Origin: an uncultured bacterium | GTDB taxonomy: Bacteria; Verrucomicrobiota; Verrucomicrobiia; CAIQCK01 | Assembly (NCBI GenBank): GCA_903870275.1 | Contig: CAIQCK010000013.1 | Location: 34,232-98,231, forward strand | DNA: 64,000 nt | Direction of reading: 5' to 3' | Shown: positions 12,012 through 57,312 of the stretch, in pieces | Numbering within the stretch: position 1 is the stretch's first letter | How the letters are laid out: each line of letters begins with the position of its first letter | The notes under the pieces: model-generated | Told to the model about the DNA's origin: nothing | The model's database searches: none | What the model saw: only the letters and a program-made list of their open reading frames with translations | Program-made: the position numbers and the translations under genes

Positions 12012-12083
12012 TTGATGGCTTTGTCAGAGATGATACAACGTCCGGCACTTTCGGACTGAACGGCCTGCGATATTCGCAGGCCG
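12012..12083 (+). promoter_or_regulatory. Candidate promoter and leader hairpin of the Hdr operon
   Basis: TTGATG at 12012 and TACAAC at 12034 with a 16-base spacer could form -35/-10 elements. Downstream, 12061-12083 is a perfect 10-bp stem CGGCCTGCGA/TCGCAGGCCG closed by a three-base loop, ending 42 bp before the first start codon. It may be a leader structure, an operator or an attenuator. There is no T-run. The promoter is a guess by eye; the hairpin is certain as sequence. Confidence 0.35.
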
Positions 12084-12125
12084 TGTGTCATATAGGAAAC
12101 GTCGTTGAGAAGTGCATAACGCGTT

Positions 12126-12899
12126 ATGAACGAGATCGAGCAGACACTCGACAAGTGCTTGATGGCCATCGGAGCGGATTGCCAGCGTTTGCTCTTCGCC
12201 TTGCAGCAAAGCCCGGAAGCGGTGTGGAACGAAATCCTGAGAATGGAATCGGCCGGCCATGCGTTCCATGAGACCTGTTCCGGTTTCCAGGACAAGTCCG
12301 CGGCGCACGAAATCATGACTCTCATCGGCGCGCTGCGCGTCCAAATGGCCAAAGACGGGCTTATGGACCGTGAAGAGCGTGCCGCGTTCCGAAAGGCTGT
12401 ATCGGCCATCAAGTCTTGCGCAAATCAGTTGCGAAACCTGTTCGGTGTAAAAAGCACTGTTAGTAATCGCCGCTTGAAGACATACGTTTTTTATTGCTCG
12501 AACCATTTGGATGCCGGCCGGCTGGCCGGTCTTGGCGAAGAAATGGGCGGAGAGACGGTCAAGACCATCGGTCTGCCTTGCTCCGGAAAAGTGGACGTGC
12601 CTTATTTGGTAAAAGCCCTGGAAACGGGTGCGGACGGAGTGGTGGTCGTGGCTTGCAAAAAATCGGAGTGCCGTCACTTCGAAGGCAGTCTGCGCGCCCA
12701 CAAACGTGTCGAGGCGGTCGAATCCCTGTTGGAGGAAATCGGATTCGGCGCGGGACGGATGGCCGTCATCGAGTGCGCCAAAGACGGGGCCGGGCAGGCC
12801 TGCAAGGAAATCAAGCAGTTCATCGAACAGGTCAGAAATCTGTCCCCAATCCAAATCCCCGGTGGCGCCGTGAACAAACAGGAACCAAGGGTCGCATGA
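12126..12899 (+). CDS. MvhD-like protein with N-terminal helical domain
   Basis: A 257-residue protein, first gene of the operon. Residues 1 to about 115 are an all-helical domain I do not recognise. Residues 118-240 match the MvhD/FlpD delta-subunit family (PF02662), which carries electrons on a 2Fe-2S cluster between HdrA and partners: YVFYCSN, LPCSGKVD, ALETGADGVVVVACKKSECRHFEGS. Compared with the canonical copy at 25352-25798, the FCCxxC segment is reduced to a single Cys, while the PC and the two Cys of the ACKKSEC segment remain. The cluster may be altered. The stop overlaps the metF start (ATGA). No clear ribosome binding site is seen before the ATG. Confidence 0.75.
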   Translation: MNEIEQTLDKCLMAIGADCQRLLFALQQSPEAVWNEILRMESAGHAFHETCSGFQDKSAAHEIMTLIGALRVQMAKDGLMDREERAAFRKAVSAIKSCANQLRNLFGVKSTVSNRRLKTYVFYCSNHLDAGRLAGLGEEMGGETVKTIGLPCSGKVDVPYLVKALETGADGVVVVACKKSECRHFEGSLRAHKRVEAVESLLEEIGFGAGRMAVIECAKDGAGQACKEIKQFIEQVRNLSPIQIPGGAVNKQEPRVA

Positions 12900-13798
12900 A
12901 ACCAGACAGCCAGCTCGCCAGACGAATTGAGGCCGGAGAGTTCATTGTCACCGCCGAGCATGCGCCGCGGACCACGGCGACCCTGTCCGCCACGGAAGCG
13001 GCCTTGAAGGCCTTGGGCGGCAAGCTCACGGCGGTCAACATGGGCGACAACCAACACGGGGTGGCCATGTCTTCCCTGGCCGCCTCGGCGGCCGCGCTCA
13101 AATCGGGCCTCGAACCGGTTCTCCAGATGGTCACTCGCGACCGCAACCGCATCGCTCTCCAATCCGATTTGCTGGGAGCCGCCAGTCTGGGGATCAAGAA
13201 TGTGCTGTGCTTGTCCGGCTACCATCAGACGCTGACCGGCTGTCCGGAGGCGATGAACGTGTTCGACGTGGATTCCACGCAGTTCATTTCGACGACCACC
13301 CGGATGGGCGAGCAGGGTTTGCTGGCTGACGGGACGAAGATTGACGGGCCGTTTGCAATGCTGGTGGGAGCGGTGGCCAATCCATTTCTGAAGCCGCTGG
13401 AACTCAATTTGATCAGACTCCAGAACAAAGTCGAGGCGGGCGCCCGATTCATTCAAACGCATCCGGTCTTTGATCTCGACACGTTCAGCCAATGGCTCGA
13501 CGCGGTTCGCCAGGCGGGTCTCACGAAGAAGGTTGCGATTCTGGCCAGCGTGTTCCCGTTGGAGAGCGCGGCGGAGGCCCAAGCGGTGCTCAAGACCCAT
13601 CCTGATTTTTACATCCCGGACGCCGTGATGGAACGGCTCCAAGCCTCCGGTAACGGCGGCGGGAAGCCGGGCTTCGCGCTCTGCGTGGAGACCATCAAGA
13701 AGTTGAAGACGATGGAGGGAGTGCGCGGGATTCATATTCTCTCCGGTGGCAAGGAAGCCGTGGTGCCGGAACTGCTTGCGGCCGCCGGGCTGGCCTGA
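12896..13798 (+). CDS. metF: Methylenetetrahydrofolate reductase, MetF-type
   Basis: A 300-residue TIM-barrel flavoprotein that interconverts 5,10-methylene- and 5-methyl-tetrahydrofolate. Family features: a Glu in VTAEHAPR at the first strand, VLQMVTRDRNRIALQSDLLGA, GIKNVLCLSG, and the folate/flavin region around VNVFDVDS-like residues (FDVDSTQF). The length suits the short MetF type that works with a separate zinc/FeS subunit MetV, and a MetV gene closes this operon. In Moorella-type acetogens MetF and MetV sit in a complex with HdrABC and MvhD and do not use NAD(P)H directly; the gene order here suggests the same arrangement. The start is fixed by overlap with the preceding stop. Confidence 0.88.
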   Translation: MKPDSQLARRIEAGEFIVTAEHAPRTTATLSATEAALKALGGKLTAVNMGDNQHGVAMSSLAASAAALKSGLEPVLQMVTRDRNRIALQSDLLGAASLGIKNVLCLSGYHQTLTGCPEAMNVFDVDSTQFISTTTRMGEQGLLADGTKIDGPFAMLVGAVANPFLKPLELNLIRLQNKVEAGARFIQTHPVFDLDTFSQWLDAVRQAGLTKKVAILASVFPLESAAEAQAVLKTHPDFYIPDAVMERLQASGNGGGKPGFALCVETIKKLKTMEGVRGIHILSGGKEAVVPELLAAAGLA

Positions 13799-13810
13799 CC
13801 GGGAAAGAGC

Positions 13811-15208
13811 ATGCCGGAGAAATATCACATCAAGACACGTCCGGTGCCGCCGCGACGCCCCCGCATCGGCAAACACGGCGTGGTGGATTGGCGGGAGGAT
13901 TGCGCCCGGTGCCACAACTGCGTGAAGAAGGCCTGCGTTTATGACCGCTACCGGCAGGAGGCGGATTACATTCGCAACCTGAGCGAAGTGGAAGCGCTGT
14001 TCTTCGACTGCATGGGGTGTTTCTCCTGTGTGCAGGATTGCACGAAGGGCCTCTTGCGCCTGGCCGTCAATCCCGTCTATGAACGCCTCGGCAACAGCTA
14101 CTGGAAACCCGACATCATCAAAACCACGTGGCTCCAGGCGGAAACCGCGAAGATCCCGGTCTCGGGCGCGGGCTACCGCGGACCGTTTTCCGGCCCGGGT
14201 TTCGATTCGATGTGGACGGACATGTCGGAGATCGTTCGTCCGACCCGCGACGGGATTCATGGCCGCGAATATATCAGCACATCGGTGGACATCGGGCGCA
14301 AGCTCCCGTATCTGGCTTTGCAGGGGGATCGGGTCATGGCCGAGTTGCCTCCCTTGGTGTCGGTCCCGATGCCGCTGATCATTGATCTCAGTTCCCCGGT
14401 CCATACGTTGCCGCAGCTCGATGCCCTGATCGAAGAGACGGCGGCGGCGACCGACTTGATTGCGATCATGGACGCCCGGCATCAGCCGGCGACAGAGAGT
14501 CATCTGCGTCATATCGCGTTCTATCTGGGGCCGGACAGTCCTCCGGTGCCGGCCGAGACGCTGCGAAAGACCAGGCTCGTGGAAATCGCAGACAGCCCTG
14601 CGGTGATCGAGCGCATCAAGGGAATCAAAACGATCCATCCCGGGATCGTGACTTCCATTCGGGTCGAGTTGACGGCAACGGGCCTCCATCGCGCTGTCGA
14701 GTTGGCTGGGATGCCGGAGGTGGAGGCGATCCACGTCATGGCGGACGCCAATGGCAACGAAATCGGCGTGCGATCGCCGCGTTTTCTGAAGGACATGCTC
14801 CGGCACCTTCACACCACCCTCATCGAGAAGGGCATCCGGGATGAGATCACACTGATTGCCGGAGGCGGGATCGCGCTGCCGGAACACATGGCCAAGGCGA
14901 TCATTTGCGGCGCAGACGTGGTGACGATGAATCTGCCGCTGATGATCGCGCTCGATTGCCATCTGTGCGAGAGCTGCAAGCCGGGCCGGGCGTGCCCCGC
15001 CAGACTGGAAACGATTGATCGCGAGTTTGGCGTGGGCCGCATGACGAATCTCATCGCGGCCTGGCATGACCAGTTGATCGAGTTGATGGGGGCCATGGGC
15101 ATGCGCGAGGCGCGCCGGCTGCGCGGCGATGTCGGCCGCGCCATGTTCTTTGAGCAACTTGAAGAGGAAACCTTCGGCAAGCTTTATGGCACCAGAACGA
15201 GGCATTAA
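13811..15208 (+). CDS. FeS/GltB2-like protein, degenerate glutamate synthase domain
   Basis: A 465-residue protein. The N-terminus binds two FeS clusters: C-x2-C-x2-C-x4-C near residue 31 and CMGCFSCVQDC near residue 67. The rest aligns in outline with the FMN-binding glutamate synthase domain (GltB2): the late strand and loop TLIAGGGIALPEHMAKAI and the cluster CHLCESCKPGRAC near residue 382 are kept. The phosphate-, FMN- and substrate-binding segments seen in the next gene (GGMSFGS, KPGLGG, DGGYGGTGA) are missing or unrecognisable. It is therefore probably a non-catalytic electron-transfer or structural partner of its neighbour. Its 3' end overlaps the next gene by 23 bp. Confidence 0.75.
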   Translation: MPEKYHIKTRPVPPRRPRIGKHGVVDWREDCARCHNCVKKACVYDRYRQEADYIRNLSEVEALFFDCMGCFSCVQDCTKGLLRLAVNPVYERLGNSYWKPDIIKTTWLQAETAKIPVSGAGYRGPFSGPGFDSMWTDMSEIVRPTRDGIHGREYISTSVDIGRKLPYLALQGDRVMAELPPLVSVPMPLIIDLSSPVHTLPQLDALIEETAAATDLIAIMDARHQPATESHLRHIAFYLGPDSPPVPAETLRKTRLVEIADSPAVIERIKGIKTIHPGIVTSIRVELTATGLHRAVELAGMPEVEAIHVMADANGNEIGVRSPRFLKDMLRHLHTTLIEKGIRDEITLIAGGGIALPEHMAKAIICGADVVTMNLPLMIALDCHLCESCKPGRACPARLETIDREFGVGRMTNLIAAWHDQLIELMGAMGMREARRLRGDVGRAMFFEQLEEETFGKLYGTRTRH

Positions 15209-16754
15209 AGAGCTGTTGCCCGGGAACACGCTGAAAACACGTGTGCCGCAGGAACACGTGGAGCGGGTCATCCGGCTGGCTCCGTCGCGCTATCGCAATG
15301 AAATCGCCAAGTATCTGGTCCATCGCAGCCAGGATTGCCGGCGTTGCGGAAAATGCGGTGAGGTTTGCACTCACCATGTTCATGTGCGCAACCCCGGCTT
15401 CAAGTATTTTGGCGAGCCGCTGCATCACTTGTGCATCGGGCCGGCCTGCGAAAAGACCGGGCATTATTGCGTAAAGCATTGTCCGCAAGGGGCGCTATCG
15501 GTCCGGGAAAGTCCGATGTATCAGGTGCTGGGCGATTATCGCTGGTCGAGCGACATGATTCTGGCGACCTGGAAAATGGCTGAGACCGGGGACGTGCCGC
15601 CGGCCGACTACGATTACGACTACGAGTGCGGCAATTCCGGCGGCGGTTTCGACCGGCTCCGGTTCAAATTTCCCAAGCGCCCGCCCGTGGCGCTGCGCGA
15701 GGACGAGATTGACACGAGCCTGCTGCTCAACAAGCGCGGCGATGGCCGGCCCAAGCTCAAGATCGATGTGCCGTGGTATGGCGGCGGCATGTCGTTCGGT
15801 TCGGTGAGCAACGTCACCCAATTGTCCAAAGCCCGAGTGGCGGTGGCGTTCAATACTTTCACCTGCACGGGCGAGGGCGGCTACATGGAGCGGATGCGGC
15901 CGTATGACGACCATGTGATTACGCAGGTGGCGACGGGCCTGTTCGGCGTGCGCGAGGAAACGATCCAGCGCGTGCCGATTGTGGAATTCAAGTATGCCCA
16001 GGGCGCCAAGCCGGGTCTGGGCGGTCACCTTCTGGGTGACAAGAACACGGTCGCGGTGGCCAGGATGAGGGAAGCGGTGCTGGGCATCTCGCTCTTCTCC
16101 CCGTTCCCCTTCCATAGCGTCTATTCCATCGAAGACCACATGAAGCACATCGACTGGATCAAGCACGTGAACCGGCGCGCGCTGATCTCGACGAAAGTTT
16201 CCACGCCCACGGATGTGGATATGGTGGCGGTGGGCAGCTACTCCGCGGGCACGCATATCGTCCACATTGACGGCGGGTATGGCGGAACGGGCGCGGCGCC
16301 GGACATCGCCAAGAAGAACATCGCCATGCCCATTGAATACGCCATTGGCAAGGTCCACCGGTTTCTCGCGGATGAAGGCGTCCGGGACAAGGTGACGTTG
16401 ATTGCCAGCGGCGGCATTCGCTCGGTCCATGACGTGGCCAAGGCCATTGCCCTGGGAGCCGACGGCGTGGTCATTGGGACCGCGGAAATGGTGGCGTTGG
16501 GCTGCGTGCGGTGCAGCCGTTGCGAGAGCGGACGCGGTTGTCCGCGCGGCATCGCCACGACCGACCCCGAGCTCGCCCAAAAGATGGAGCTTGATTGGGG
16601 CACGCAGCGGCTGATCAACCTCTACAGCGCCTGGCGCAAGGTGCTGGTTTCCATTTTGCAGCGGCTGGGCCTGCGCAGCGTCTGCGAATTGCGCGGACGC
16701 ACCGACCTTTTGATGCACTTGGATTACACGAAGGACGTGGCGACAACCACATGA
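15186..16754 (+). CDS. Ferredoxin-fused glutamate synthase FMN domain (GltB2)
   Basis: A 522-residue protein. Residues 50-105 carry two FeS motifs (CRRCGKCGEVC and a second C-x4-C-x6-C-x3-C group). From about residue 190 it is a complete glutamate synthase synthase domain: GGGMSFGSVSN, AKPGLGGHLLGDKN, the YSIED segment, and HIDGGYGGTGAAP, with FMN phosphate-binding IASGGIRS and the cluster C-VRCSRCESGRGC near residue 440. It would reduce 2-iminoglutarate to glutamate using electrons from its FeS chain. It is the archaeal-type stand-alone arrangement, with glutaminase on the next gene. The start is the ATG at 15186, inside the end of the preceding gene; the longer frame upstream is overlap. 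Confidence 0.85.
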   Translation: MAPERGIKELLPGNTLKTRVPQEHVERVIRLAPSRYRNEIAKYLVHRSQDCRRCGKCGEVCTHHVHVRNPGFKYFGEPLHHLCIGPACEKTGHYCVKHCPQGALSVRESPMYQVLGDYRWSSDMILATWKMAETGDVPPADYDYDYECGNSGGGFDRLRFKFPKRPPVALREDEIDTSLLLNKRGDGRPKLKIDVPWYGGGMSFGSVSNVTQLSKARVAVAFNTFTCTGEGGYMERMRPYDDHVITQVATGLFGVREETIQRVPIVEFKYAQGAKPGLGGHLLGDKNTVAVARMREAVLGISLFSPFPFHSVYSIEDHMKHIDWIKHVNRRALISTKVSTPTDVDMVAVGSYSAGTHIVHIDGGYGGTGAAPDIAKKNIAMPIEYAIGKVHRFLADEGVRDKVTLIASGGIRSVHDVAKAIALGADGVVIGTAEMVALGCVRCSRCESGRGCPRGIATTDPELAQKMELDWGTQRLINLYSAWRKVLVSILQRLGLRSVCELRGRTDLLMHLDYTKDVATTT

Positions 16755-19402
16755 ACGGTGAATTGATCAAACATCTGGCCGCTTCAAGAAAACGGCTGGC
16801 CGAACAGCTCAACCACGCTTCGTCTTTGAAAAAGGAAGCCGAAGAAGGTGGCTGCGGCGTGGTGGGTTTCTGTTGCAGCGAGCCGGTGCCGGGCAAGCAT
16901 ATCTACGAACCGTCCCGGCAGATGCACAATCGCGGCAACGGCAAAGGGGGCGGCATTGCCGCGGTGGGCCTGGTGCCAGAGCAGCTTGGCGTCAGCCGCG
17001 AAGTTCTCGACAGTCATTACCTGCTGCATCTGGCGTTCATTGACACCCAGGTGCGGCCCGAAATTGAGGCGCAGTTCGTCACGCCGCACTTCGACATCGC
17101 CGGAACCGGCCGGCTCGACCAGGTCGCGGACTGGAAGTCCGTGCCGGGTCTGGAGGTGTTGCCGCCGGAGGTCAGCCGCTATTTTGTGCGCGTCAAGCCG
17201 AAGGTGCTGGACGAGTTTATCGCCAAAAATCATCTGGAGGCGCTGGACCGGGGCGAGGCGGAAGACGAGTTCGTCAACCAGAACAGTTTCGCCCTGAACC
17301 AGAAATATTACGCGGCACTGGGAGAGAAACGCGCCTTCGTGCTTTCGCACGGCCGCGACCTCATGATTCTCAAGGTGGTCGGGTTCGCCGAGGCGATCGT
17401 CAAATACTACAAGATCGAGGAACTCTGCGCGCACGAGTGGATCGCCCATCAGCGTTTCCCGACCAAGGGCCGTGTCTGGCACCCCGGCGGCGCGCATCCG
17501 TTTGCGGCCATTGACATGGCGCTCGTGCATAACGGCGACTTTGCCAATTACCATTCTGTCAGCGAGTATCTCAAGCAGCGCCACATCTATCCCCAGTTCC
17601 TCACCGACACGGAAGTCTCGGCCTTGCTCTTCGATCTGCTGAGCCGGACTTATCATTATCCGCTGGAGTATATCATTGAGGCGTTGGCGCCGACCACGGA
17701 ATTGGACTTTGACCGTCTCGATCCTGAGAAGCAGAAAATTTACCGGGCGATTCAAGCCACCCACATTCACGGTTCGCCCGATGGCCCGTGGTTCTTCATC
17801 ATCGCCCGCACGCTGGCTCGCCAGAAGCAATTCCAGTTGATGGGCATCACGGACACCGCGATGCTGCGGCCGCAAGTGTTCGCGTTCTGCGACGGCGAAG
17901 TCCAGGTGGGCTTGATTTGCTCGGAGAAACAGGCCATCGACGCCACCCTCTCCAGCCTGGCCAAAGAGGACCCGCGCATCTGCCCGGTGGCCGATCGATA
18001 TTGGAATGCCCGCGGCGGCAGTTCCAACGATGGCGGGGCTTTCATTTTCAATCTGCAAAAGGACGCGGCCGGCCGGATGCGGATCACCTGCACCGACAAG
18101 TTCGGGAAAGTGGTTCCCATGCCGAAGGGAAACGAAGCTTGTGATTTCGCGCGGGAACCCCATCCCGAAGCGGAGAAAGCCGTCCAAACCTTCATCACCG
18201 AACACTTTGTTCCTGGTCAGGCGTGGTCGGTTTTCGAAGCGGTCCGCGGACAGGTGCCGGCCTGGAGTTTCGACGAACTCCGGTTCGCCTGCCGACAAAT
18301 CGCCGGGCAAGCCAAGGACCCGGCCAAGACGGCGACCGCCATCGAGGTCCTCACGCTGCTGAATGACCGAAGATATTCCACCGGCGCCAAGAAACGCAGT
18401 CATGTGCTCCAGGTCATCCACAGCGAGCTGGACCGGTTGTTCCGTCAGTTGCCCAACCTCGGCGCGCCCGAGGCCCGGCAGAGCGCCTTCCGGCTGATTG
18501 ATTTCGAGACCCGCCAGCACCTGAGGGAACCGCAAAACGGCGAAACCACCCTCGTCATTGACGCGGCCCATTTCCCGCCGGAAGGCGACGATTGCGACGC
18601 CGCCCTGCTGGTGGATGCCTACGCAAAGGGCTGGCGCCATTTCATCAGTTTCAGTTGCATCGGGCAGCGCTATCTGGGCTGCGGTCTGGGACCGGACACG
18701 GACGGCGTGACCATCGAGGTCTATGGCAGCAGCGGCGACTACCTTGCCTCCGGCATTGACGGTCTGGCGATCACTGTGCATGGCAATGCCCAGGACCAGT
18801 TGGGGCAGATCATCAAGCGGGGCAAGCTCGTCATTCATGGCGACGTGGGCCAGACCTTCATGTATGGCGCCAAGGGCGGCTCCGTCTATGTGCTGGGCAA
18901 CGCCGCCGGCAGACCTTTGATCAACTCCGTCGGACGCCCCAAGGTGGTCATCAACGGCACCTGCCTCGATTTCCTGGCCGAGTCTTTCATGGCCGGCGAT
19001 CCTCATCAGGGCGGCGGGTTCGTGATCTTGAACGGCGTCAAGTTGGACGAGGATGGAAAAATGGTCGCGCTGCCCGAGCCTTATCCCGGCAGCAACCTGT
19101 TCTCGCTGGCTTCGGGCGGAGCGATTTTTGTCCGCGACCCGCACCGCACCCTGGTCGAGGAACAGTTGAACGGCGGCAAGTTCGCCCGGCTCACGGACGC
19201 GGACTGGGAGTTGATCCTGCCGCACCTGGAAGAAAATGAGCGGCTGTTCGGCATCACCATCGAGCAACTCTTGACGGAAAAAGGGCGGAAGCGCCGGCCC
19301 GCGCAGGTGTATCGCAAGGTGATACCCGGCAGCGTCGCCGCCATCGTCGAGGATGAAACCGACGACGTGATGGCGGAAGCCGAAGCGGTGGCCGCCAAAT
19401 AG
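16751..19402 (+). CDS. Glutaminase-GXGXG fusion (GltB1-GltB3)
   Basis: An 883-residue protein. The N-terminal 34 residues look like a propeptide cleaved before Cys35 in GGCGVVGF, the nucleophile of class II glutamine amidotransferases. The remaining active-site motifs are intact: MHNRGNGKGGGI, HNGDFANY and TDTEVS. The glutaminase spans to about residue 400. A long linker follows, then from about residue 600 a GXGXG beta-helix domain (VYGSSGDYLASGI, VHGNAQDQLG, IHGDVGQTFMYGAKGG) typical of the glutamate synthase C-terminus. The central FMN domain is absent and supplied by the two preceding genes. It should release ammonia from glutamine and channel it to GltB2. The start overlaps the preceding stop. 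Confidence 0.87.
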   Translation: MNGELIKHLAASRKRLAEQLNHASSLKKEAEEGGCGVVGFCCSEPVPGKHIYEPSRQMHNRGNGKGGGIAAVGLVPEQLGVSREVLDSHYLLHLAFIDTQVRPEIEAQFVTPHFDIAGTGRLDQVADWKSVPGLEVLPPEVSRYFVRVKPKVLDEFIAKNHLEALDRGEAEDEFVNQNSFALNQKYYAALGEKRAFVLSHGRDLMILKVVGFAEAIVKYYKIEELCAHEWIAHQRFPTKGRVWHPGGAHPFAAIDMALVHNGDFANYHSVSEYLKQRHIYPQFLTDTEVSALLFDLLSRTYHYPLEYIIEALAPTTELDFDRLDPEKQKIYRAIQATHIHGSPDGPWFFIIARTLARQKQFQLMGITDTAMLRPQVFAFCDGEVQVGLICSEKQAIDATLSSLAKEDPRICPVADRYWNARGGSSNDGGAFIFNLQKDAAGRMRITCTDKFGKVVPMPKGNEACDFAREPHPEAEKAVQTFITEHFVPGQAWSVFEAVRGQVPAWSFDELRFACRQIAGQAKDPAKTATAIEVLTLLNDRRYSTGAKKRSHVLQVIHSELDRLFRQLPNLGAPEARQSAFRLIDFETRQHLREPQNGETTLVIDAAHFPPEGDDCDAALLVDAYAKGWRHFISFSCIGQRYLGCGLGPDTDGVTIEVYGSSGDYLASGIDGLAITVHGNAQDQLGQIIKRGKLVIHGDVGQTFMYGAKGGSVYVLGNAAGRPLINSVGRPKVVINGTCLDFLAESFMAGDPHQGGGFVILNGVKLDEDGKMVALPEPYPGSNLFSLASGGAIFVRDPHRTLVEEQLNGGKFARLTDADWELILPHLEENERLFGITIEQLLTEKGRKRRPAQVYRKVIPGSVAAIVEDETDDVMAEAEAVAAK

Positions 19403-19417
19403 CAAAAGGAAACCACG

Positions 19418-19984
19418 GTGATCACCATCAAGAAAAAGAAAACTGCTCCGGGCCTCAAGCACGCGGTCGAGCAGCTTTGCCACGTGGACCTGAGCGTCTG
19501 TTTCCAGTGCAAGAAGTGCTCCAGCGGCTGTGCGGTGGCCAAACTCACCAAGATCCGCCCGTCGGAGGTGATGCGGCGGCTGCATTTGGACGCCGGCCGG
19601 GAACTGTTGGAAAGCGATCTCATCTGGACCTGCGCCTCGTGTGGAACCTGTTCGGCGCGCTGCCCGATGGGGATTGATGTGGCGGCCGTCATGGACGCCT
19701 TGCGCCAACTGGCGATGGCCCGGGGAGCGTCCACGCCGGCTGGCAATGTGCCGTTGTTCAATCGGGCCTTCCTCAAGACGGTGGCCACGTTCGGCCGCAC
19801 GTATGAACTCGGCATGGTCGCCGCTTACAAACTCGGCACCGGCAAGTTGATGGCCGACACGGAGAAGTTTCCCACGATGCTCAAGAAGGGGAAGCTCGCG
19901 CTGCTGCCTCCCCGCGGGGCCGACCGGAAAACCGTGGGCCGCATTTTCAAGCACGCTCAACAACACCAAGGACCCCAGGCATGA
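19418..19984 (+). CDS. hdrC: Heterodisulfide reductase subunit C-like (HdrC)
   Basis: A 188-residue protein with two 4Fe-4S motifs, CFQCKKCSSGC (about residue 28) and CASCGTCSARC (about residue 72), followed by a helical C-terminal part, as in HdrC. It relays electrons between HdrA and HdrB. It starts at GTG 19418, preceded by AAAAGGAAA at good distance. The stop overlaps the hdrB start. No membrane segment is seen, so this is the soluble HdrC type rather than HdrE-linked. Confidence 0.9.
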   Translation: MITIKKKKTAPGLKHAVEQLCHVDLSVCFQCKKCSSGCAVAKLTKIRPSEVMRRLHLDAGRELLESDLIWTCASCGTCSARCPMGIDVAAVMDALRQLAMARGASTPAGNVPLFNRAFLKTVATFGRTYELGMVAAYKLGTGKLMADTEKFPTMLKKGKLALLPPRGADRKTVGRIFKHAQQHQGPQA

Positions 19985-20859
19985 GGTATGCGTATTTTCC
20001 AGGTTGCTCGGCGGAGTCCACCGCCCGGGACATGCACCAGTCCACGCTGGCGGTGGCGCGTGCGTTGAACCTTGAGCTGGTGGAACCCAAAGGCTGGACG
20101 TGCTGCGGCGCGACTGCCGGCCACCAGACGGACCCCTTTCTGGCTGTCTCCCTGCCCGCCGCCAATCTGGCCAAAGTCCAGGACATGAAGCTGGACATGG
20201 TGGTCAACTGCGCCGCCTGCTTCAACCGGATGAAAGTCGCCAACCACGAAATCGCGGCGGATGCGGCCGTCCGCAAGCAGGTCGGCGCGGCGTTGGATCG
20301 TGATTATGATGGCTCGGTCAAAGTCCGGCATCTGCTCGAAGTGCTCCTCGACGATGTGGGCACGAAAGCTCTCGCGCGGGCCGCCAAGAGTTCCCTGGCC
20401 GGCCTCAAGGTGGCTTGTTATTACGGATGCCTGCTGGTGCGTCCGCCCAACATTTTGAAATTTGACGACCCGGAAAATCCGACCTGCCTGGACCGGCTGG
20501 TGACCGCGCTGGGCGGCCAGAGCCTGGAATGGCCCGGCAAGGTCGAATGCTGTGGCGGCGGTTTGTCGCTCTCGCGGACCGATGTGGTGGTCAACCTCTC
20601 GGAATCAATACTCGACATGGCCGTTCAGGCCGGGGCGGACTGCATCGCGGTCAGTTGCCCCATGTGCCAGGTCAATTTGGATTTGCGGCAGCAGGACATC
20701 AACAAACAGACCGGCAAGAACTATCAAATCCCGATCATTTACATCACGCAACTGATCGGGCTTTGTCTGGGTGTTGGCCCGGACGAACTCGGCTTCGAGA
20801 AACTGATGGTGCCGGCTTCCCGCGTTCTGGAAAAGGTGACAGCAAACCCTCATGAGTAA
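19981..20859 (+). CDS. hdrB: Heterodisulfide reductase subunit B-like (HdrB)
   Basis: A 292-residue protein with two complete CCG domains: PGCSAEST...WTCCGAT...NCAAC and CYYGC...VECCGGG...SCPMC. In methanogen HdrB these Cys hold two non-cubane 4Fe-4S clusters that reduce a disulfide; in HdrB-like proteins of bacteria the substrate is often unknown. All expected Cys are present, so redox catalysis is likely. Length is normal. The last codons overlap the hdrA start by 8 bp. Confidence 0.9.
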   Translation: MRYAYFPGCSAESTARDMHQSTLAVARALNLELVEPKGWTCCGATAGHQTDPFLAVSLPAANLAKVQDMKLDMVVNCAACFNRMKVANHEIAADAAVRKQVGAALDRDYDGSVKVRHLLEVLLDDVGTKALARAAKSSLAGLKVACYYGCLLVRPPNILKFDDPENPTCLDRLVTALGGQSLEWPGKVECCGGGLSLSRTDVVVNLSESILDMAVQAGADCIAVSCPMCQVNLDLRQQDINKQTGKNYQIPIIYITQLIGLCLGVGPDELGFEKLMVPASRVLEKVTANPHE

Positions 20860-23800
20860 GTCCGACGACAAAAAGATTGGCGCAGTGCTTGTGCAGGGCG
20901 GCGGCATCGCCGGCGTGCAAGCCTCTTTGGACCTCGCCAACAGCGGGTTCAAGGTCTATCTCGTCGAGCGCGATGGGGCCATCGGCGGCATGATGGCTCA
21001 TTTGGACAAGACTTTTCCGACCGGTGATTGCGCCACCTGCATCGTCTCCCCCAAACTTGTCGAATGCGCCCGCAACCTGAATGTCAAAATCCTGACGCTG
21101 TCGGAGCTGACGGACCTGCAGGGCACGCCGGGTCATTTCGAAGCGAAGGTGAAGAGGTTCCCGCGGTATGTGGACGAGGACAAATGCACCGGTTGCAGCC
21201 AATGCACGCAAGTTTGCCCCGTGGACGTGCCGGATGAATTCAACCGTTGTCTCGGCACCCGCAAGGGCATTGCCAAACTTTACGCGCAAGCGACGCCGAA
21301 CATCTTCGGCATTCTCAAGCAGGGTCACGCGCCTTGCAAGGTGAAGTGCCCGGCCCGGGTCAACGTTCAGGGCTACGTCCAGCTCATCAAGAAGAAGGAA
21401 TATCTCAAGGCGGTGAATCTGATCCGCCAGCGCAACCCGCTTTCCGCCATTTGCGGCCGGATCTGCACGCATCCTTGCGAATCGGTCTGCACGCGCGGCA
21501 CTGCCGACGAGGCCGTCGCCATCCGGTTGTTGAAACGGTTTGCCTCCGATCAAGAGAGCGCGATGCTCGCCGCGGGCCAACTGACCCTGCCCGAGGAAAA
21601 GAAGCCCGCGCAGGACGCCAAAAAAGTGGCGGTCATCGGAGCCGGTCCCGCGGGCCTGACCGCGGCGGCGGACTTGGCGGACGCGGGTTTTGCGGTCACC
21701 GTGTATGAGTCGCAGGGCGCGGCGGGCGGCATGCTTCGCTGGGGCATTCCCGAATACCGGCTGCCGAAGAAAGTGTTGGACCACGAGGTCGAACTGATTC
21801 GCCGCAAGGGCGTCCAGTTCGTTTATAATTGCCGCGTCGGGCAGGACATTACTTTTCAGGCGCTGCGCGAGAAGAACGACGCGGTCATGATCTCCGCCGG
21901 CGCGCACAAGAGCCGCAAGCTCCGCATCGACGGCGAAGACAAGAAGGGTGTGTTGCACGGCGTCGAGTTTCTCCGCGAGGCGGCTTCCGCGCAAAAGCCG
22001 GCGGTCAAGGGCCGCGTCCTGGTCATTGGCGGCGGCAACGTCGCGGTGGATGTGGCCCGGACGGCCTTGCGCCTCGGCGCCCGGAGCGTCGAGATGGTTT
22101 CCCTCGAAGCGCGGCACGAGATGCCGGCCTACAAGGAGGAAATCGAAGCCACGCTGGCGGAGAACATCAAGATCCGCAATAGCTGGGGACCCAAACGCAT
22201 CGTGGGCAACGGTTCCGTGACCGGCCTCGAACTCAAACGCTGCACCCGTGTTTTCGACGAGCAGAAACGGTTCAGTCCCGCGTTTGACGAGAACGATTTG
22301 ACCACACTGGAAGCCGACCAGATCATCGTGGCCATCGGCCAGATGACGGACGAGCAGTTGGTCAGCCACATCCCGGTCGAGAACGCGCGCGGTTGTTTCA
22401 AGGCCGACCCGGTCACCGGGCAAACGTCCCTCGCCGGCGTGTTCGCGGGCGGCGACAATGCATCCGGCGCGGCCTCGGTCATAGACGCCGTCGCGGCGGG
22501 CAAACGCATCGCCGAATCCATCGAGCGTTATCTCAAGGGCAAGGATTTGCTGACCGACCGGTTTGAGAGCACCGTCCAGCCGATTCCGGAGGAAATGCTG
22601 CCCGCGACGGCGAAACTTGAAAAGAAGAGCCGGCCCCGGCCGCAGGAATTGGCGCCGACCGACCGGCAGGGCAACTTCGACGAGGTCGAGAAAGGCCTGA
22701 CCGAGGAACAAGCGTTGGCGGAGGCCGAGCGTTGCCTGAATTGCGCGCTTTGCTCGGAGTGCAATCGCTGCGCCGAGGCGTGCGAGCAGCACGCCATCAA
22801 CCACGCGATGCGGGAGCAGACGGTCACCCTCGACGTGGGCGCGGTCATCCTGACGCCGGGGTTCAAGGAATTTGCCGCCGGCCGAAAAGGCGAGTTTGGC
22901 TACGGCCGCTATCCGAATGTCGTCACCAGTGTGCAATTCGAGCGCATGCTCTCCGCCGCCGGCCCGTTCGAGGGTCATGTCATCCGTTTGTCGGATGGCC
23001 GGGAGGCCAAACGCATTGCGTGGATTCAATGCGTCGGCTCACGCGATGCGGCGAGCGGTCACGACTATTGCTCCTCGATCTGCTGCATGATGGCGACGAA
23101 ACAGGCGCTGGTGGCCGGCGATCACGTCACCGGGTTGGATGCGACGATTTTCTACATGGATATCCGCGCCCACGGAAAAGATTTCGACCAATACTACGAA
23201 CGGGCCAGGGCGCAGAAACACATTCACTACGTGAAGAGCATTCCTTCACGGATCGTCCAGATCCCCGGCAGTCGGGATCTGCGCGTCCAGTTTCTCGATG
23301 GCCAGGGCCAGCTTCAGCAGCGCGATTTTGACCTGGTCGTCTTGTCTGTCGGCATGGAACCGCCGGACTCCCTGACCCGGTCCGCCGCCCGTCTCGAGAT
23401 CAAGCTGAACGATTACGGTTTTTGCCGGACCGACCGGCTCGCGCCGCTGGTCACCTCCCGGCCGGGCGTGTTTGTGGGCGGGGCGTTCCAGGAACCCAAG
23501 GACATTCCCGAGACCGTGACCCAGGCCAGCGCCGCGGCATCCATGGCGATGGAGTTGCTGGCGTCCGCGCGCAACACGCTCGTCACCAAGAAGAGTTACC
23601 CGACCGAGCACGATGTCACGGATGAAGAACCGCGCGTCGGCGTCTTTGTCTGCCATTGCGGCATGAACATCGGCTCGGTGGTGAATGTGGAGCAGGTTGT
23701 GCAACGCATCGCGAAGCAACCGGGCGTGGTGCTGGCGACCCACACGATGTTCACCTGTTCCGACACGAGCCTGTCGAACATCAAGGACATGATTCGCGAA

Positions 23801-25348
23801 CATCGCCTCAACCGCATCGTGGTCGCCTCCTGCACGCCGCGAACGCACGAGCCGTTGTTCCGCGAAACATTGCGCGAGGCGGGCTTGAATCCGTATTTGT
23901 TCGAGATGGCCAACATCCGCGACCAGTGCTCGTGGGTGCATTCGACGGTGCCGCAAACGGCCACTGACAAAGCGGTGGAACTGGTCAAGATGTCCATTGC
24001 CCGGGCGCGCGAACTGTCGCCGCTGGAAGGCGGGACGCTGAAAGTGGACCAGACCGGCCTGGTCATCGGCGGCGGATTGAGCGGCATGACCGCCGCCCTC
24101 GCGCTGGCGAACCAAGGATTCCCGGTGCATCTCGTCGAGCAAACAAACCGGCTGGGCGGAACCCTGCATGACATTCATGGGACCTTCGAGCACCCGGACC
24201 TGGCCCCGTTTACCGGCGCGCTCATCCAGCAGGTGGAAACGCATCCCAACATCAAGCGGTATCTGGAAACGGAGGTTGTCGGCGTCAAAGGCCACGTCGG
24301 CAAATTCAATCTGACGCTGGGCAAGGACGGCCGGCAGACCGAGATTTCCGGCGGGACCATCATCGTGGCCACGGGCGCTCGTGAGGCCAGGACCACCGAC
24401 TTCATGTATGGCCGCACCCCGGGCGTGTTGACGCAGGTCGAGTTGGCGAAACGGCTGCATGACCGGGCATACCCGGCCAAGGGACAGACGGTGGTCATGA
24501 TCCAATGTGTCGGATCGCGAAATGACCAACATGCTTATTGCAGCCGCATCTGCTGCTCAATGGCCATCAAGAACGCCCTGGCAATCAAGAAACAGGACCC
24601 CGACGCCAGCGTTTATGTGCTCTACCGGGATGTCCGCACCTACGGTTTCCGGGAGCTGTATTACAAACAAGCGCGCGAAGCCGGCGTGGTCTTTATCCGC
24701 TACACGCCGGAAACCGCACCGCAGGTGAGCGACTCCGCCGGTTTGATGGTCGCGCTCCAAAGCCCCGACTTTCCCGAACCGATCCAGATCGAGGCCGATC
24801 ACGTGGTGCTCAGCACCGGCATGGAAGTGGACTTGAAAAACAACAAGCGTGTCTCCGACATGCTCAAAGTGCCGCTCAACGCCGACGGGTTCTATGTCGA
24901 AGCCCACATGAAACTGCGGCCGGTGGATTTCACCACCGAAGGCATTTTCCTTTGCGGGCTGGCCCATTCGCCGAAGTTCATAGACGAAAACATCTCCCAG
25001 GCGCGGGCCGCCGCCGCGCGCGCCGCCACCGTGCTTTCCAAGACGCAACTCGACGTCAGCGCCCAGGTGTCCTACGTCAACCAACAAAAATGCATTTCCT
25101 GCATGACCTGCGTCACGGTGTGCCCGTATTCCGCGCCGTTCTGCAACAAGGACGGCAAAGGCCAGATCGAAGCCGCCAAGTGCATGGGATGCGGCATTTG
25201 CGCTTCGGAGTGCCCGGCCCGTGCCATCCAACTCCATCATTTTGAGACCGACCAGTTTCTGGTCATGATCCGCCAACTGTTCGCGGGCGGGAATGGGACA
25301 TCAACAACCTGCGACAACACGGAAACGAAGGTCGTGCAAACAGCCTGA
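20852..25348 (+). CDS. hdrA: HdrA-GltD-HdrA triple fusion flavoprotein
   Basis: A 1498-residue soluble FeS flavoprotein. Residues 1-152 are the HdrA N-terminal half: FAD loop QGGGIAGVQASLDLA, DKTFPTGDCATC and ferredoxin motif CTGCSQCTQVCP. At residue 153 it switches abruptly to a GltD/NfnB-type unit: N-terminal FeS domain (CKVKCPARVNV, CGRICTHPCE), FAD loop VIGAGPAGLTAA near 257, NAD(P) loop VIGGGNVAVDVA near 390, and exit motif VFAGGDNASGAAS. From about 625 (CLNCALCSECNRCAEAC) HdrA sequence resumes (IQCVGSRD, YCSSICCM) to about 920. A second complete HdrA follows (VFVCHCGMNIGS, VIGGGLSGMTAA, IQCVGSRND) ending in two 4Fe-4S motifs (CISCMTCVTVC, CMGCGICASEC). It could take electrons from NAD(P)H and split or join them across two FAD sites; bifurcation is inference. 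Confidence 0.9.
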   Translation: MSKSDDKKIGAVLVQGGGIAGVQASLDLANSGFKVYLVERDGAIGGMMAHLDKTFPTGDCATCIVSPKLVECARNLNVKILTLSELTDLQGTPGHFEAKVKRFPRYVDEDKCTGCSQCTQVCPVDVPDEFNRCLGTRKGIAKLYAQATPNIFGILKQGHAPCKVKCPARVNVQGYVQLIKKKEYLKAVNLIRQRNPLSAICGRICTHPCESVCTRGTADEAVAIRLLKRFASDQESAMLAAGQLTLPEEKKPAQDAKKVAVIGAGPAGLTAAADLADAGFAVTVYESQGAAGGMLRWGIPEYRLPKKVLDHEVELIRRKGVQFVYNCRVGQDITFQALREKNDAVMISAGAHKSRKLRIDGEDKKGVLHGVEFLREAASAQKPAVKGRVLVIGGGNVAVDVARTALRLGARSVEMVSLEARHEMPAYKEEIEATLAENIKIRNSWGPKRIVGNGSVTGLELKRCTRVFDEQKRFSPAFDENDLTTLEADQIIVAIGQMTDEQLVSHIPVENARGCFKADPVTGQTSLAGVFAGGDNASGAASVIDAVAAGKRIAESIERYLKGKDLLTDRFESTVQPIPEEMLPATAKLEKKSRPRPQELAPTDRQGNFDEVEKGLTEEQALAEAERCLNCALCSECNRCAEACEQHAINHAMREQTVTLDVGAVILTPGFKEFAAGRKGEFGYGRYPNVVTSVQFERMLSAAGPFEGHVIRLSDGREAKRIAWIQCVGSRDAASGHDYCSSICCMMATKQALVAGDHVTGLDATIFYMDIRAHGKDFDQYYERARAQKHIHYVKSIPSRIVQIPGSRDLRVQFLDGQGQLQQRDFDLVVLSVGMEPPDSLTRSAARLEIKLNDYGFCRTDRLAPLVTSRPGVFVGGAFQEPKDIPETVTQASAAASMAMELLASARNTLVTKKSYPTEHDVTDEEPRVGVFVCHCGMNIGSVVNVEQVVQRIAKQPGVVLATHTMFTCSDTSLSNIKDMIREHRLNRIVVASCTPRTHEPLFRETLREAGLNPYLFEMANIRDQCSWVHSTVPQTATDKAVELVKMSIARARELSPLEGGTLKVDQTGLVIGGGLSGMTAALALANQGFPVHLVEQTNRLGGTLHDIHGTFEHPDLAPFTGALIQQVETHPNIKRYLETEVVGVKGHVGKFNLTLGKDGRQTEISGGTIIVATGAREARTTDFMYGRTPGVLTQVELAKRLHDRAYPAKGQTVVMIQCVGSRNDQHAYCSRICCSMAIKNALAIKKQDPDASVYVLYRDVRTYGFRELYYKQAREAGVVFIRYTPETAPQVSDSAGLMVALQSPDFPEPIQIEADHVVLSTGMEVDLKNNKRVSDMLKVPLNADGFYVEAHMKLRPVDFTTEGIFLCGLAHSPKFIDENISQARAAAARAATVLSKTQLDVSAQVSYVNQQKCISCMTCVTVCPYSAPFCNKDGKGQIEAAKCMGCGICASECPARAIQLHHFETDQFLVMIRQLFAGGNGTSTTCDNTETKVVQTA

Positions 25349-25351
25349 GCC

Positions 25352-25798
25352 ATGGAAACCGAAACCTTCCAACCCAAGATTGTGGCCTTTTGCTGTCACT
25401 ACTGCGCCTATTCCTCCGCTGACTTGGCCGGCTCGATGCGCATTCAGTATCCACCCAATGTGCGGATCATCCGCACGCCCTGCACGGGCCGGCTGGAGAC
25501 CGAGTATTTCATGAAGGCGCTGGAAACCGGCGCGGACGGCGTGCTGGTGGCGGGCTGTCTCGAAGGCGGCTGCCATTTTGTCGAAGGCAATCTGTGCGCC
25601 AGACGCCGGGTCAATTACACCCGTGACCTGTTGGTGGAAATCGGCATCGAAAAAGATCGCATCCGCATGGTCAACATTTCCGCCGCCATGGCCCGGCCCC
25701 TGGCGGATACCATTGCGGACATGGTCGAAACCGTCCGCAAACTGGGACCGAATCCAATCAAACGCAACGGCTCATCCAAATCGGAGAACCCCTCATGA
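25352..25798 (+). CDS. mvhD: MvhD/FlpD family 2Fe-2S electron carrier
   Basis: A 148-residue, full-length canonical MvhD: FCCHYCAYSSADLAG, PCTGRLE, ALETGADGVLVAGC and GGCHFVEGN all present with the family's conserved Cys. In Hdr complexes this subunit binds HdrA and brings in or takes out electrons from a partner enzyme. The gene starts three bases after the hdrA stop and overlaps metV by 4 bp, so stoichiometric production with both is expected. It is more typical than the copy that opens the operon. Confidence 0.92.
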   Translation: METETFQPKIVAFCCHYCAYSSADLAGSMRIQYPPNVRIIRTPCTGRLETEYFMKALETGADGVLVAGCLEGGCHFVEGNLCARRRVNYTRDLLVEIGIEKDRIRMVNISAAMARPLADTIADMVETVRKLGPNPIKRNGSSKSENPS

Positions 25799-26463
25799 TC
25801 GTCGCCCAAAGAAAAACCATCCCCGACCTGCTGGCCATCGTTGAAAAACACCGGAAGCTGCTCGTCCTCGGTTGCGGCACTTGCGTCACCGTCTGCCTGG
25901 CGGGCGGACAGCGCGAAGTCAGCATCATCTCGTCCGCACTGCGCATGGCGGCCAAGCTGAAAGGACTGCCCCTGGAAGTCGAAGAAGGGACCATCGAACG
26001 CCAGTGCGACAACGTCTTTCTCGAACAGGCGGCTGACACCATCAAGAACCACGATGCTGTTCTTTCCTTGGGCTGTGGCGCCGGTGTTCAAGCGCTGGCG
26101 GAGCGTTACTCCGGCAAACCGGTTTACGCCGGTCTGGACACGGCCTTCATCGGCATCCTGGAGGAACGGGGAGTCTGGGCGGAGAAATGCGCGGCCTGCG
26201 GCGCGTGCATGCTTCACCTCTACGGCGGGATTTGTCCCGTCACCCGCTGCGCCAAACACATGCTGAACGGCCCGTGCAGTGGTTCCCGTGAAGACCACTG
26301 CGAAGTAGACTCCGCGCGCCCTTGTGCCTGGCAACTTATCTACGAGCGCCTCAAGTCCATCGGACAACTGGACGAACTCAAGAAGACGAAACCACCCAAG
26401 AACTGGCGTCCGAGTCTGGCGGGCGGCTGCCGCACCATCGTCCGGGAAGATCATAGAGTTTGA
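25795..26463 (+). CDS. metV: MetV-like methylenetetrahydrofolate reductase FeS subunit
   Basis: A 222-residue protein of the methylene-tetrahydrofolate reductase C-terminal domain family (PF12225), called MetV in acetogens. The hallmark is a Cys cluster near the C-terminus, CAACGACMLHLYGGICPVTR followed by the NGPCSG segment, plus earlier Cys in LVLGCGTCVTVC and LSLGCGAG. MetV links MetF to its electron supply. With metF as gene 2 and metV as gene 10, the operon is bracketed by the two halves of one enzyme, a good sign that everything between belongs together. The start overlaps the mvhD stop. Confidence 0.88.
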   Translation: MIVAQRKTIPDLLAIVEKHRKLLVLGCGTCVTVCLAGGQREVSIISSALRMAAKLKGLPLEVEEGTIERQCDNVFLEQAADTIKNHDAVLSLGCGAGVQALAERYSGKPVYAGLDTAFIGILEERGVWAEKCAACGACMLHLYGGICPVTRCAKHMLNGPCSGSREDHCEVDSARPCAWQLIYERLKSIGQLDELKKTKPPKNWRPSLAGGCRTIVREDHRV

Positions 26464-31857: not shown

Positions 31858-32529
31858 TTAGTGCGTCAATGCATACACGGCGATGTTGAGCGCCAGCCGT
31901 TGGCCGTCTTCGGGGCTGATGCCCTTGCCCCGATTGCAACTGTTGTTGGCGCTGAACGCGCAACACAGGCCCTCCTCGCACATCACGGCCACGAGGTTGC
32001 CTTGGTAAAACAAACCTTCGAGATGGATGTCCCGGCTCTCGTGCAGGCAACGCACCCGCTCGATCTTGTAGAACGTCCTGTAGATCAGATGGTCGTAGGA
32101 CAGTGGCTTGACCCGTTCGTTCGGGAAAACCCGGCTGAATTCGCGCCGCCACGCGGCCGGATACGCCGGGTTCGTGCAACAGCCCGACGAGAGCATAAAG
32201 CCGCCGTGGCTGAAATATTTTTGCAGATTCGCCAACTCCGCCTCGGTCAGCACGAAATCGTTGTGGCCGTTCATAAAGACAAATGGCGTGTCGAACAACT
32301 CCTCGCCGACCAGCTTGACCTTGCGCTCGTCCTGGATCTTGATCGTGGACGCGCGCGACACGAGCTTCAGCAAATCCTGGCCGACGCCACCGCAATCACT
32401 GCCCATGTTCCGGCCGTATTGGATGCGGCCCATGAAAAATGTCGCCAACCGGTCGTCGCTTTCCTGGCTCCAGGCAAGCCGGGCGGCCGCAGCAACGACC
32501 ATCAAAACCAAGAGTCTTCGGGGTTTCAT
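31858..32529 (-). CDS. Exported DUF4159 protein (module A)
   Basis: A 223-residue protein with signal peptide MKPRRLLVLMVVAAAARLAWS. DUF4159 features: VGEELFDTPFVFMNGHNDF, a following FSHGGFMLSSGCC, and the C-terminal ALNIAVYAL. The fold resembles class I glutamine-amidotransferase-like domains, without evident catalytic Cys-His. The protein is Cys-rich (SGCCTN, EEGLCC). The start overlaps the VWA gene stop (ATGA). It is the last member of MoxR module A and is paralogous to 48783-49478. Confidence 0.82.
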   Translation of the reverse strand: MKPRRLLVLMVVAAAARLAWSQESDDRLATFFMGRIQYGRNMGSDCGGVGQDLLKLVSRASTIKIQDERKVKLVGEELFDTPFVFMNGHNDFVLTEAELANLQKYFSHGGFMLSSGCCTNPAYPAAWRREFSRVFPNERVKPLSYDHLIYRTFYKIERVRCLHESRDIHLEGLFYQGNLVAVMCEEGLCCAFSANNSCNRGKGISPEDGQRLALNIAVYALTH

Positions 32530-39357: not shown

Positions 39358-39412
39358 CGGTTCAGACGCATGGCGGGAGCGGCGCCTTGCATTGCGGCAT
39401 GCGCAATGCGTT

Positions 39413-40330
39413 TCACTTGAGTCTCCTTCTTTCCGCGAGAAACATCGCCAGCGCGTGCCAGGGATCTTCGTCGGTCCGAACGACGCAGTGAGGCACTTCA
39501 AGACTCCGAAAAAGCTGCCGGTGCGACTCCATGAACGCATGGAAGCGGGCCAGATACTTCTCGCGCGCCGCCGATGGCGACACTTGCCGGCGCACGCCGG
39601 TCTCGAGGTCCTCGAACAGCAGCGGCGATGTGAACGGGAACTCGATTTCGTCACGGTCGAGCACCTGGAAGACGATGACCTCATGCCCGTGGAAACGGAG
39701 TTGTTTGAAGCCCATTTCAACCTCCTCTGCGGGCTCGATCAGGTCGGAGAACAGCAGCACGACGCTGCGCCGATGAATCAATCGCGCGCCCTCCGCGAGC
39801 AACCCGGACAGACACGCGCCCCCGGCGGGCTGGAGCTGTTCGAGGTGGCGCAACATCATGCCGAACTGCGATGGCTTCTGCGACGGCCGGATGAAATGCG
39901 GCACGCCGTCAGCGCCGCCCGGCGCGAGCAGGCCCGCCGCGTCGTTTTGTTTCAGCAGGAACCACGTCAGCGCCGCCGCCAGGATGCGCGCGCAGTCGAG
40001 TTTCGACCCCCACGCGCCACCGCCGCGATACGCCATCGAGGCGCTTGTGTCGCAGAGCACGTAGAACCGGACGTTGGTCTCGAGCGTGTAGCGTTTGATG
40101 CAGAGCCGGTCGCTGCGGGCATAGAGCCGCCAGTCGAGGTGCTTGAGGTCGTCGCCCGGCTGGTAGTCGCGATACTCGCTGAACTCGACGCTGAACCCGT
40201 GAAACGGGCTTTCGTGCTGCCCGCTAAGGAAACCCTCCATGACATAGCGCGCCTTGAAGTCGAGTCCCTCCAGCGCCGCGAGCGCCTTCGGATCGAAACG
40301 GTCCGCGAGTGATTGGCTGGTGGCGATCAT
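39413..40330 (-). CDS. DUF58 protein (module A)
   Basis: A 305-residue cytosolic DUF58 protein: GFSVEFSEYRDYQPGDDLKH and WRLYARSDRL are the family signature, with a VWA-like metal site in VLCDTSASMA. DUF58 proteins work with MoxR AAA+ ATPases. Short gaps (103 bp to moxR, 55 bp to the BatA-like gene) indicate one operon. Confidence 0.92.
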   Translation of the reverse strand: MIATSQSLADRFDPKALAALEGLDFKARYVMEGFLSGQHESPFHGFSVEFSEYRDYQPGDDLKHLDWRLYARSDRLCIKRYTLETNVRFYVLCDTSASMAYRGGGAWGSKLDCARILAAALTWFLLKQNDAAGLLAPGGADGVPHFIRPSQKPSQFGMMLRHLEQLQPAGGACLSGLLAEGARLIHRRSVVLLFSDLIEPAEEVEMGFKQLRFHGHEVIVFQVLDRDEIEFPFTSPLLFEDLETGVRRQVSPSAAREKYLARFHAFMESHRQLFRSLEVPHCVVRTDEDPWHALAMFLAERRRLK

Positions 40331-40350
40331 TGGCGAACAGTAATCATTAT

Positions 40351-57311: not shown

Positions 57312-57312
<1 letters not shown>
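56437..57312 (-). CDS. DUF58 protein (module B)
   Basis: A 291-residue cytosolic DUF58 protein starting at GTG, which overlaps the moxR TAG by one base. Signature: GSSTEFRDYRPYAFGDEPKL then VDWRVYARTDRFYL; VWA-like metal site LFLDSSASMG. A paralogue lies at 39413-40330. Confidence 0.92.

Follow-up and report, generated by a model that had tools for sequence, protein, structure and literature searches.

A verrucomicrobial operon encoding a probable split glutamate synthase with MetVF, HdrABC, and MvhD proteins, predicted to be driven by NADH

An uncultured bacterium of the Verrucomicrobiota (assembly GCA_903870275.1, contig CAIQCK010000013.1) carries, within a stretch of 64,000 nucleotides that was analyzed as a whole (hereafter the window), an operon of ten genes, g1 to g10 (Table 1). 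We propose that this operon encodes a split glutamate synthase (g3, g4, and g5), for which we predict NADH as the electron source, by way of the adjoining HdrABC-GltD-MvhD proteins (g6 to g9), and that its MetF (g2) likely no longer reduces methylene-tetrahydrofolate; we put the probability of this reading at roughly 0.55. An earlier note made from the letters of this DNA had described ten tightly packed plus-strand genes and had identified a glutamate synthase among them, and both descriptions held when ORF (open reading frame) coordinates, family scans, catalytic positions, and predicted folds were considered. Because metVF, hdrABC, and mvhD all lie in one cluster, the window also has the gene content of an Hdr-type methylenetetrahydrofolate reductase (MTHFR) complex.

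Results

In all likelihood the operon core is a genuine glutamate synthase, and glutamate formation itself is predicted. In g5, Cys35 (aligned to residue 1 of glutamate synthase, GltS), R235, N261, G262, D263, and D286, as expected of a class II glutaminase, are each present in at least 97% of 134 rows, and the GXGXG domain scores above the cut-off of PF01493 (56 bits); the class II glutaminase family PF13522 gives a weak match (26.3 bits; cut-off 27). The g4 product has the lysine pair (EFKYAQGAKPG), the GGTGA motif, and the cluster Cys of an FMN synthase domain, with 172 near-invariant positions across 109 rows, and matches Azospirillum brasilense GltS at 178 bits. GltB-type FeS and substrate positions are kept, and structure comparison of the predicted folds agrees with GltS. 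For g3, whose PF01645 match covers the C-terminal part only (50 bits), Foldseek alone placed IMP dehydrogenases first, and in a second alignment the top rank went to glutamate synthase, 3 Z units above flavocytochrome b2. A sequence search of the PDB with g5 did not find GltB. Related loci carry the glutamine synthetase gene GlnA (26/140), plus Amt, PII, NrpR, CarAB, and NadE; the presence of Amt, PII, NrpR, and glutamine synthetase makes a real glutamate synthase very likely. A PF01645 match in a GltB-sized ORF was missing from 11 of 28 genomes, and one of them, G222, was without any PF01645 match at all outside the locus. That the operon supplies the sole glutamate synthase of the window's host was rejected, as the host has a full-length GltB.

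Several related loci (given here by L numbers) depart from this arrangement of the synthase. In L143, L156, L159, L162, L163, L165, and L168, g3 and g4 are fused into a protein of ~970-1000 residues, suggesting that the two FMN-type subunits touch; such fusions occur in 5 of 46 Desulfobacterota loci, duplicates still included. More than 2 kb separate g4 from g5 in L008 and L170, where a second copy of the first 64 g5 residues lies upstream of g5. From position 12700 of L082, a second split glutamate synthase set directly follows the first (a protein of cluster c27, a GltB2-like protein, and a GltD/HdrA-like protein); the L038 member of cluster c27 is without a Pfam match. A further family of 520-600 aa, which by eye resembles a third FMN-type relative, is encoded near the locus in L031, L050, L061, L082, and L149; at the threshold applied, the L050 protein matched no NCBIfam model.

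We examined the conservation of the gene set in two samples. A scan of named genomes with g5 yielded 451 stretches encoding a relative; we retained the best 80, a sample biased towards the window. Mapping of the ten proteins recovered the same gene set, in the same or rotated order, from loci labelled Verrucomicrobia, Planctomycetes, Chloroflexi, Deltaproteobacteria, Ignavibacteriae, and Armatimonadota, and g2-g8 plus g10 were all present in 20 distinct loci. Among the 52 of these best 80 with at least 6 kb upstream, MvhD was found in 49, MetF in 43, MetV in 34 (an undercount where the contig ends), and HdrA in 28. The less biased sample was the phylum of G337, called Desulfobacterota here since two members are so named through other loci. 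A g5 match at 1e-60 or better was found in 70 of its 247 genomes; seven were dropped (32-33% identity), seven were not fetched (five cut by contig ends, two near a contig start), and 56 were fetched, from which ten with a short upstream flank and two duplicates of named loci were omitted, leaving 44 testable loci. These 44 held MvhD in 40, MetV in 33, MetF in 28, any Hdr gene in seven, and HdrA in five; 11 had neither MetV nor MetF, and five had MetV without MetF. The commonest Desulfobacterota form was MvhD-MetV-MetF-g3-g4-g5, with no Hdr gene nearby. An accidental neighborhood was rejected, as the gene set recurs across phyla: the earlier note had held that separate loci in close relatives would make the grouping accidental, and both the 20 loci and the Desulfobacterota sample favored a conserved grouping. 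None of the 120 protein-search matches listed came from a named cultured host.

The residues of MetF follow the presence of Hdr genes. Aligned with Escherichia coli MetF, the window MetF keeps the catalytic Glu28 (as Glu21), has Tyr109 in place of the folate residue Asp120, and has His in place of the pterin-anchoring Gln183. Papers are cited here by PMC number. In E. coli MetF, the D120N substitution leaves 0.3% of kcat and Gln183 mutants have a Km raised more than 250-fold (PMC11094777), and the folate Asp has been termed invariant and catalytically essential (PMC9900621). With Tyr and His at these two positions, active methylene-folate reduction by the operon, which the earlier note had envisaged, is unlikely, and the window MetF has likely become non-catalytic. 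Among MetF proteins linked to the glutamate synthase without Hdr (the opposite-strand MetF of L070 omitted), 40 of 41 retain D120; the exception, L029, is a stretch that ends at g5 and a locus that sits in the Hdr clade. Where the locus contains an Hdr gene, D120 is lost in 31 of 38 MetF rows (window excluded). MetF pieces shorter than 230 residues (e.g., L014, L111) were left unclassed. Residues 28/120/183 are E, D, and Q in all 20 MetF proteins from other stretches of the same genomes, which we chose, each with a MetV match in the same stretch, and without L184, which is the L047 locus. An acidic residue lies within three positions of 120 in only 4 of 35 D120-lacking rows (window, L029, and duplicates included). 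Loss of D120, placed as a label on the g5 tree, requires five changes, at least four of them if only well-supported branches are counted; 500 shuffles gave no count as low. The linked MetF is rarely a candidate for the only MTHFR of the cell, as a linked MetF with no other PF02219 match occurs only in G559 and G490; in G355, both PF02219 matches fall within the locus.

The Hdr module, as the earlier note had perceived, has a GltD module inside HdrA (a PRK12771/GltA-type insert at residues ~157-660 of g8); what needed correction is that g8 is a double HdrA, its HdrA2 match restarting at residue 928. Together with its MvhD neighbor g9, this insert gives g8 the features of HdrL and type III HdrA proteins. 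The insert has Leu-Glu at the Arg-Arg position of E. coli GltD, and Arg-Arg is kept in 7 of 30 GltD-insert rows (L013, L022, L025, L042, L050, L111, L167). We take this position to be a nucleotide-preference motif, pointing to NADH for the window; as that meaning is presumed, NADH as the donor is a prediction.

The two MvhD proteins differ. That of g1 has four Cys, like the MvhD beside MetVF in loci without Hdr, and that of g9 has two more, shared by about two thirds of g9-type MvhD proteins in Hdr loci and by at most 20% without Hdr. These two types suggest a composite operon, in which a HdrC-HdrB-HdrL-MvhD cassette seems to have been inserted into an older set, MvhD-MetF-g3-g4-g5...MetV. Across 101 MetV rows (other loci, duplicates included), twelve Cys are conserved at 100% (rounded) and a further one at 93%; a PDB search with MetV gave no useful match. 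MvhD and MetV without MetF lie beside the glutamate synthase in L144, L147, L150, L155, and L157, with glnA upstream; judging from loci without MetF, MetV may carry electrons by itself. In six other loci (L062, L069, L124, L127, L129, L139), a GlcD-type FAD/FeS protein of 612-635 aa lies directly upstream of g3 and replaces MvhD-MetVF; the L069 protein was assigned by family scan and the other five are 58-62% identical to it. By its family this protein is a donor, swapped in at the MvhD-MetVF place, and these loci are candidates for a 2-hydroxyacid-driven glutamate synthase.

Table 1. Genes of the operon in the window
Gene	Product	Position	Strand	Evidence
g1	MvhD-like, 257 aa, N-terminal extension of ~120 residues, four-Cys type	12126..12899	+	PF02662 90 bits; Cys pattern
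g2	MetF relative, 300 aa	12896..13798	+	PF02219 94.9 bits; alignment with E. coli MetF
g3	FeS domain (8 Cys) and second glutamate-synthase-type FMN barrel without substrate motif, 465 aa	13811..15208	+	
g4	FeS and glutamate synthase FMN domain with catalytic positions; start uncertain (15186 ATG / 15216 TTG)	15186..16754	+	PF01645 301 bits
g5	Class II glutaminase (Cys35 nucleophile), central, and GXGXG domains, 883 aa	16751..19402	+	
g6	HdrC	19418..19984	+	TIGR03290 64 bits, below cut-off 160
g7	HdrB	19981..20859	+	TIGR03288 201 bits, below cut-off 345; PF02754
g8	HdrL-type double HdrA, 1498 aa, GltD/NfnB module at residues ~157-660	20852..25348	+	
g9	MvhD of the Hdr cassette, six-Cys type	25352..25798	+	PF02662 163 bits
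g10	MetV, 13 conserved Cys	25795..26463	+	PF12225 123 bits

The ten consecutive ORFs occupy window positions 12126-26463, and neighbors overlap or lie at most 15 bases apart. Overlaps of 4 bases occur at g1/g2, g4/g5, g6/g7, and g9/g10, and one of 8 bases at g7/g8; gaps of 12, 15, and 3 bases separate g2-g3, g5-g6, and g8-g9, respectively. At the g3/g4 junction, there is an overlap of 23 with the ATG start or a gap of 7 with the TTG start. In the NCBIfam scans, most matches (e.g., HdrB, HdrC, HdrA) scored below the curated cut-offs.

Elsewhere in the window, an inverted repeat (ACGGCCTGCGA..TCGCAGGCCGT, positions 12060-12084) lies between a divergent DinB-like gene and g1 and is a possible operator or terminator. 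On the minus strand, 32526-41486 and 49475-58325 are similar to each other: each is a series of genes that, judged by eye, encode MoxR-like ATPase, DUF58-like, and von Willebrand-like proteins, and the two resemble duplicated clusters.

The operon was probably acquired horizontally, a conclusion drawn from comparison of genomes: (i) it was not found in the three congeners searched; (ii) the nearest rows on the g5 tree are Verrucomicrobiota (L008-L010), adjoining Planctomycetota; and (iii) the flanking genes occur in congeners, one 83-90% identical in two of three and the other 79-87% in three of three (one copy with internal stops). The two congeners holding both flanking genes have them on different contigs, so that an empty insertion site was not demonstrated. 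The presence of the flanking genes in congeners makes misassembly or a binning error unlikely. The host genome, of 7.1 Mb, is among the 31 of 48 genomes with g5 that also encode ACS, the sole Wood-Ljungdahl gene sought in the host. In a Verrucomicrobiota sample of 288 genomes, ACS was found in 19 and g5 at more than 50% identity in four, with two genomes in common.

Discussion

From the gene set, its conservation, the residues, and the predicted folds, we infer an electron route, with its direction, donor, and assembly, as follows. NADH would reduce the GltD flavin inside HdrA; electrons would then pass through the clusters of HdrA/HdrBC and MvhD, and through those of MetV, to the FeS/FMN subunits g3 and g4, where 2-oxoglutarate and ammonia released by the glutaminase g5 would yield glutamate. 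An older form would have consisted of MvhD, MetV, MetF, and the glutamate synthase, with the folate site intact and methyl-tetrahydrofolate as donor, a form still common in Desulfobacterota. Addition of the HdrC-HdrB-HdrL-MvhD cassette between g5 and MetV would have freed MetF to lose its folate site, with MetV and MvhD retained as wiring. Thus MetVF, supplied with methyl-folate, was probably the original electron donor, later superseded by the Hdr-GltD cassette: the MetF site is lost where Hdr is present with MetV and MvhD intact, which fits MetVF as the earlier donor, since a donor becomes expendable once another has taken its place.

More broadly, and with less than even confidence, we suggest that anaerobes with the Wood-Ljungdahl pathway hold a widespread class of methyl-tetrahydrofolate-driven glutamate synthases wired by MetF, MetV, and MvhD, and that in the lineage of the window an NADH-oxidizing Hdr-GltD module replaced the folate input, leaving MetF non-catalytic. 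In the folate-driven form, methyl-tetrahydrofolate, glutamine, and 2-oxoglutarate would give methylene-tetrahydrofolate and two glutamate. By calculation from redox potentials, electron transfer from methyl-tetrahydrofolate to glutamate formation would have about -15 kJ/mol without glutamine hydrolysis, and oxidation of methyl-folate with NAD+ is uphill, at about +23 kJ/mol.

A number of observations weigh against the NADH-driven synthase with a non-catalytic MetF. The host also has a canonical MetF elsewhere, a full-length GltB, and ACS, so the operon is an addition there; no nitrogen gene was recognized in the window's own flanks; and 7 of the 11 genomes without a GltB-sized ORF hold further PF01645 proteins. 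D120 is still present in 7 of 38 Hdr-linked rows (L051, L057, L071 in two rows, L082, L113, and L152; the Hdr call of L082 depends on a 777-residue HdrA/GltD-like ORF of its second glutamate synthase set). Of the 33 D120-lost tree rows, 26 fall in one clade, and Hdr presence was judged within the fetched flank. The distribution of ACS counts in favor of our reading, as it is present in 14 of 16 genomes with a D120-keeping linked MetF vs 11 of 24 with D120 lost (p 0.0095), but this contrast ignores kinship and gaps in metagenome-assembled genomes and omits eight genomes without a classed MetF. The predicted NADH preference derives from one motif. Glu28 is kept in the window and in 37 of 38 Hdr-linked MetF proteins (not L060), so changed activity fits as well as lost activity. 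The Asp position is not strictly conserved in the flavin-free Mfr (PMC11094777), so its loss is by itself no proof of lost activity.

Changed activity could mean a new substrate, such that the pocket with Tyr, Phe, or His at position 120 takes another C1 carrier or an imine and still exchanges electrons. Besides the kept Glu28, this would account for the residues found at 120 in most Hdr-linked D120-lost rows (Y in 18, F in 5, and H in 3 of 33, duplicates counted) and for five positions conserved in D120-changed MetF rows only; positive evidence for any substrate is absent, and we consider the idea unlikely. A rather doubtful possibility is that MetVF is an active methylene-tetrahydrofolate reductase sharing one bifurcating Hdr complex, so that MetVF and the glutamate synthase both accept electrons from NAD(P)H. 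Its six Hdr-MTHFR genes are the same as in Moorella and Sporomusa, the linkage is conserved, and Glu28 is kept, but the window has both Asp120 and Gln183 replaced, Asp is lost in 31/38 rows with Hdr vs 1/41 without, and an Hdr input should not release the active site of a MetVF that is itself an acceptor. Regulatory linkage, in which nitrogen and C1 genes are co-expressed without a common complex, would suit the variable cores (MetV without MetF in 5 of 44 loci, neither in 11); it is improbable given the g3-g4 fusions, the gene overlaps, and the cluster Cys kept by MetV and MvhD where the MetF site is lost or MetF is absent. That the amidotransferase/FMN set makes another product, like N-methylglutamate synthase, which has related subunits, agrees with the lack of a GltB match to g5 in the PDB by sequence, but is very improbable in view of GlnA, Amt, and PII in related loci, the 11 of 28 genomes without a GltB-sized ORF, and the GltB-type substrate and FeS positions.

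The operon, read as an NADH-driven glutamate synthase, can be compared with four kinds of known system. With GltBD and ferredoxin-dependent GltS it shares the glutaminase, FMN/FeS synthase, and GXGXG domains, the conserved catalytic positions, and matching predicted folds; unlike them, it splits the synthase into three genes, has a second FMN-type subunit without the substrate motif, places its GltD module inside HdrA, and is linked to MvhD, MetV, MetF, and HdrBC. Hdr-type MTHFRs are known (PMC9430772, PMC5736913, PMC7325909): MetVF-HdrABC-MvhD occurs in Moorella thermoacetica and Sporomusa ovata, with pull-down contacts reported for the latter (PMC9430772). The operon has the same six subunits, here known from genes, but adds a glutamate synthase, a second MvhD, and the GltD insert in HdrA, and its MetF has lost the folate Asp and Gln. 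Proteins with a GltD/NfnB insert in HdrA have been described as HdrL (PMC2702500), whose loci have MvhD adjoining, HdrA9-11 (PMC9012536), and type III HdrA (PMC12054007), whereas here a double HdrA stands with HdrBC beside a glutamate synthase. F420-dependent glutamate synthases proposed in ANME (anaerobic methanotrophic) archaea (PMC9012536) likewise pair synthase subunits with a redox protein dedicated to electron input, which is FrhB-like there and MvhD-MetVF, GlcD-FeS, or Hdr here. The earlier note knew of no described system of this composition. This stands for the whole set, as we found no description of it, or of any linkage of glutamate synthase with MetVF or Hdr, in the open-access literature (most subscription papers lie outside that coverage); it does not extend to HdrA-GltD proteins, which were already described.

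If our proposal is correct, these loci would give anaerobes a further kind of electron input for a main ammonium-assimilating enzyme, and a single enzyme needing neither NADPH nor ferredoxin would link nitrogen to one-carbon metabolism. They would further point to a way for some Wood-Ljungdahl organisms to dispose of the electrons from methyl-folate oxidation, and would constitute a natural experiment in which one electron module replaces another and a lost active site is the trace.

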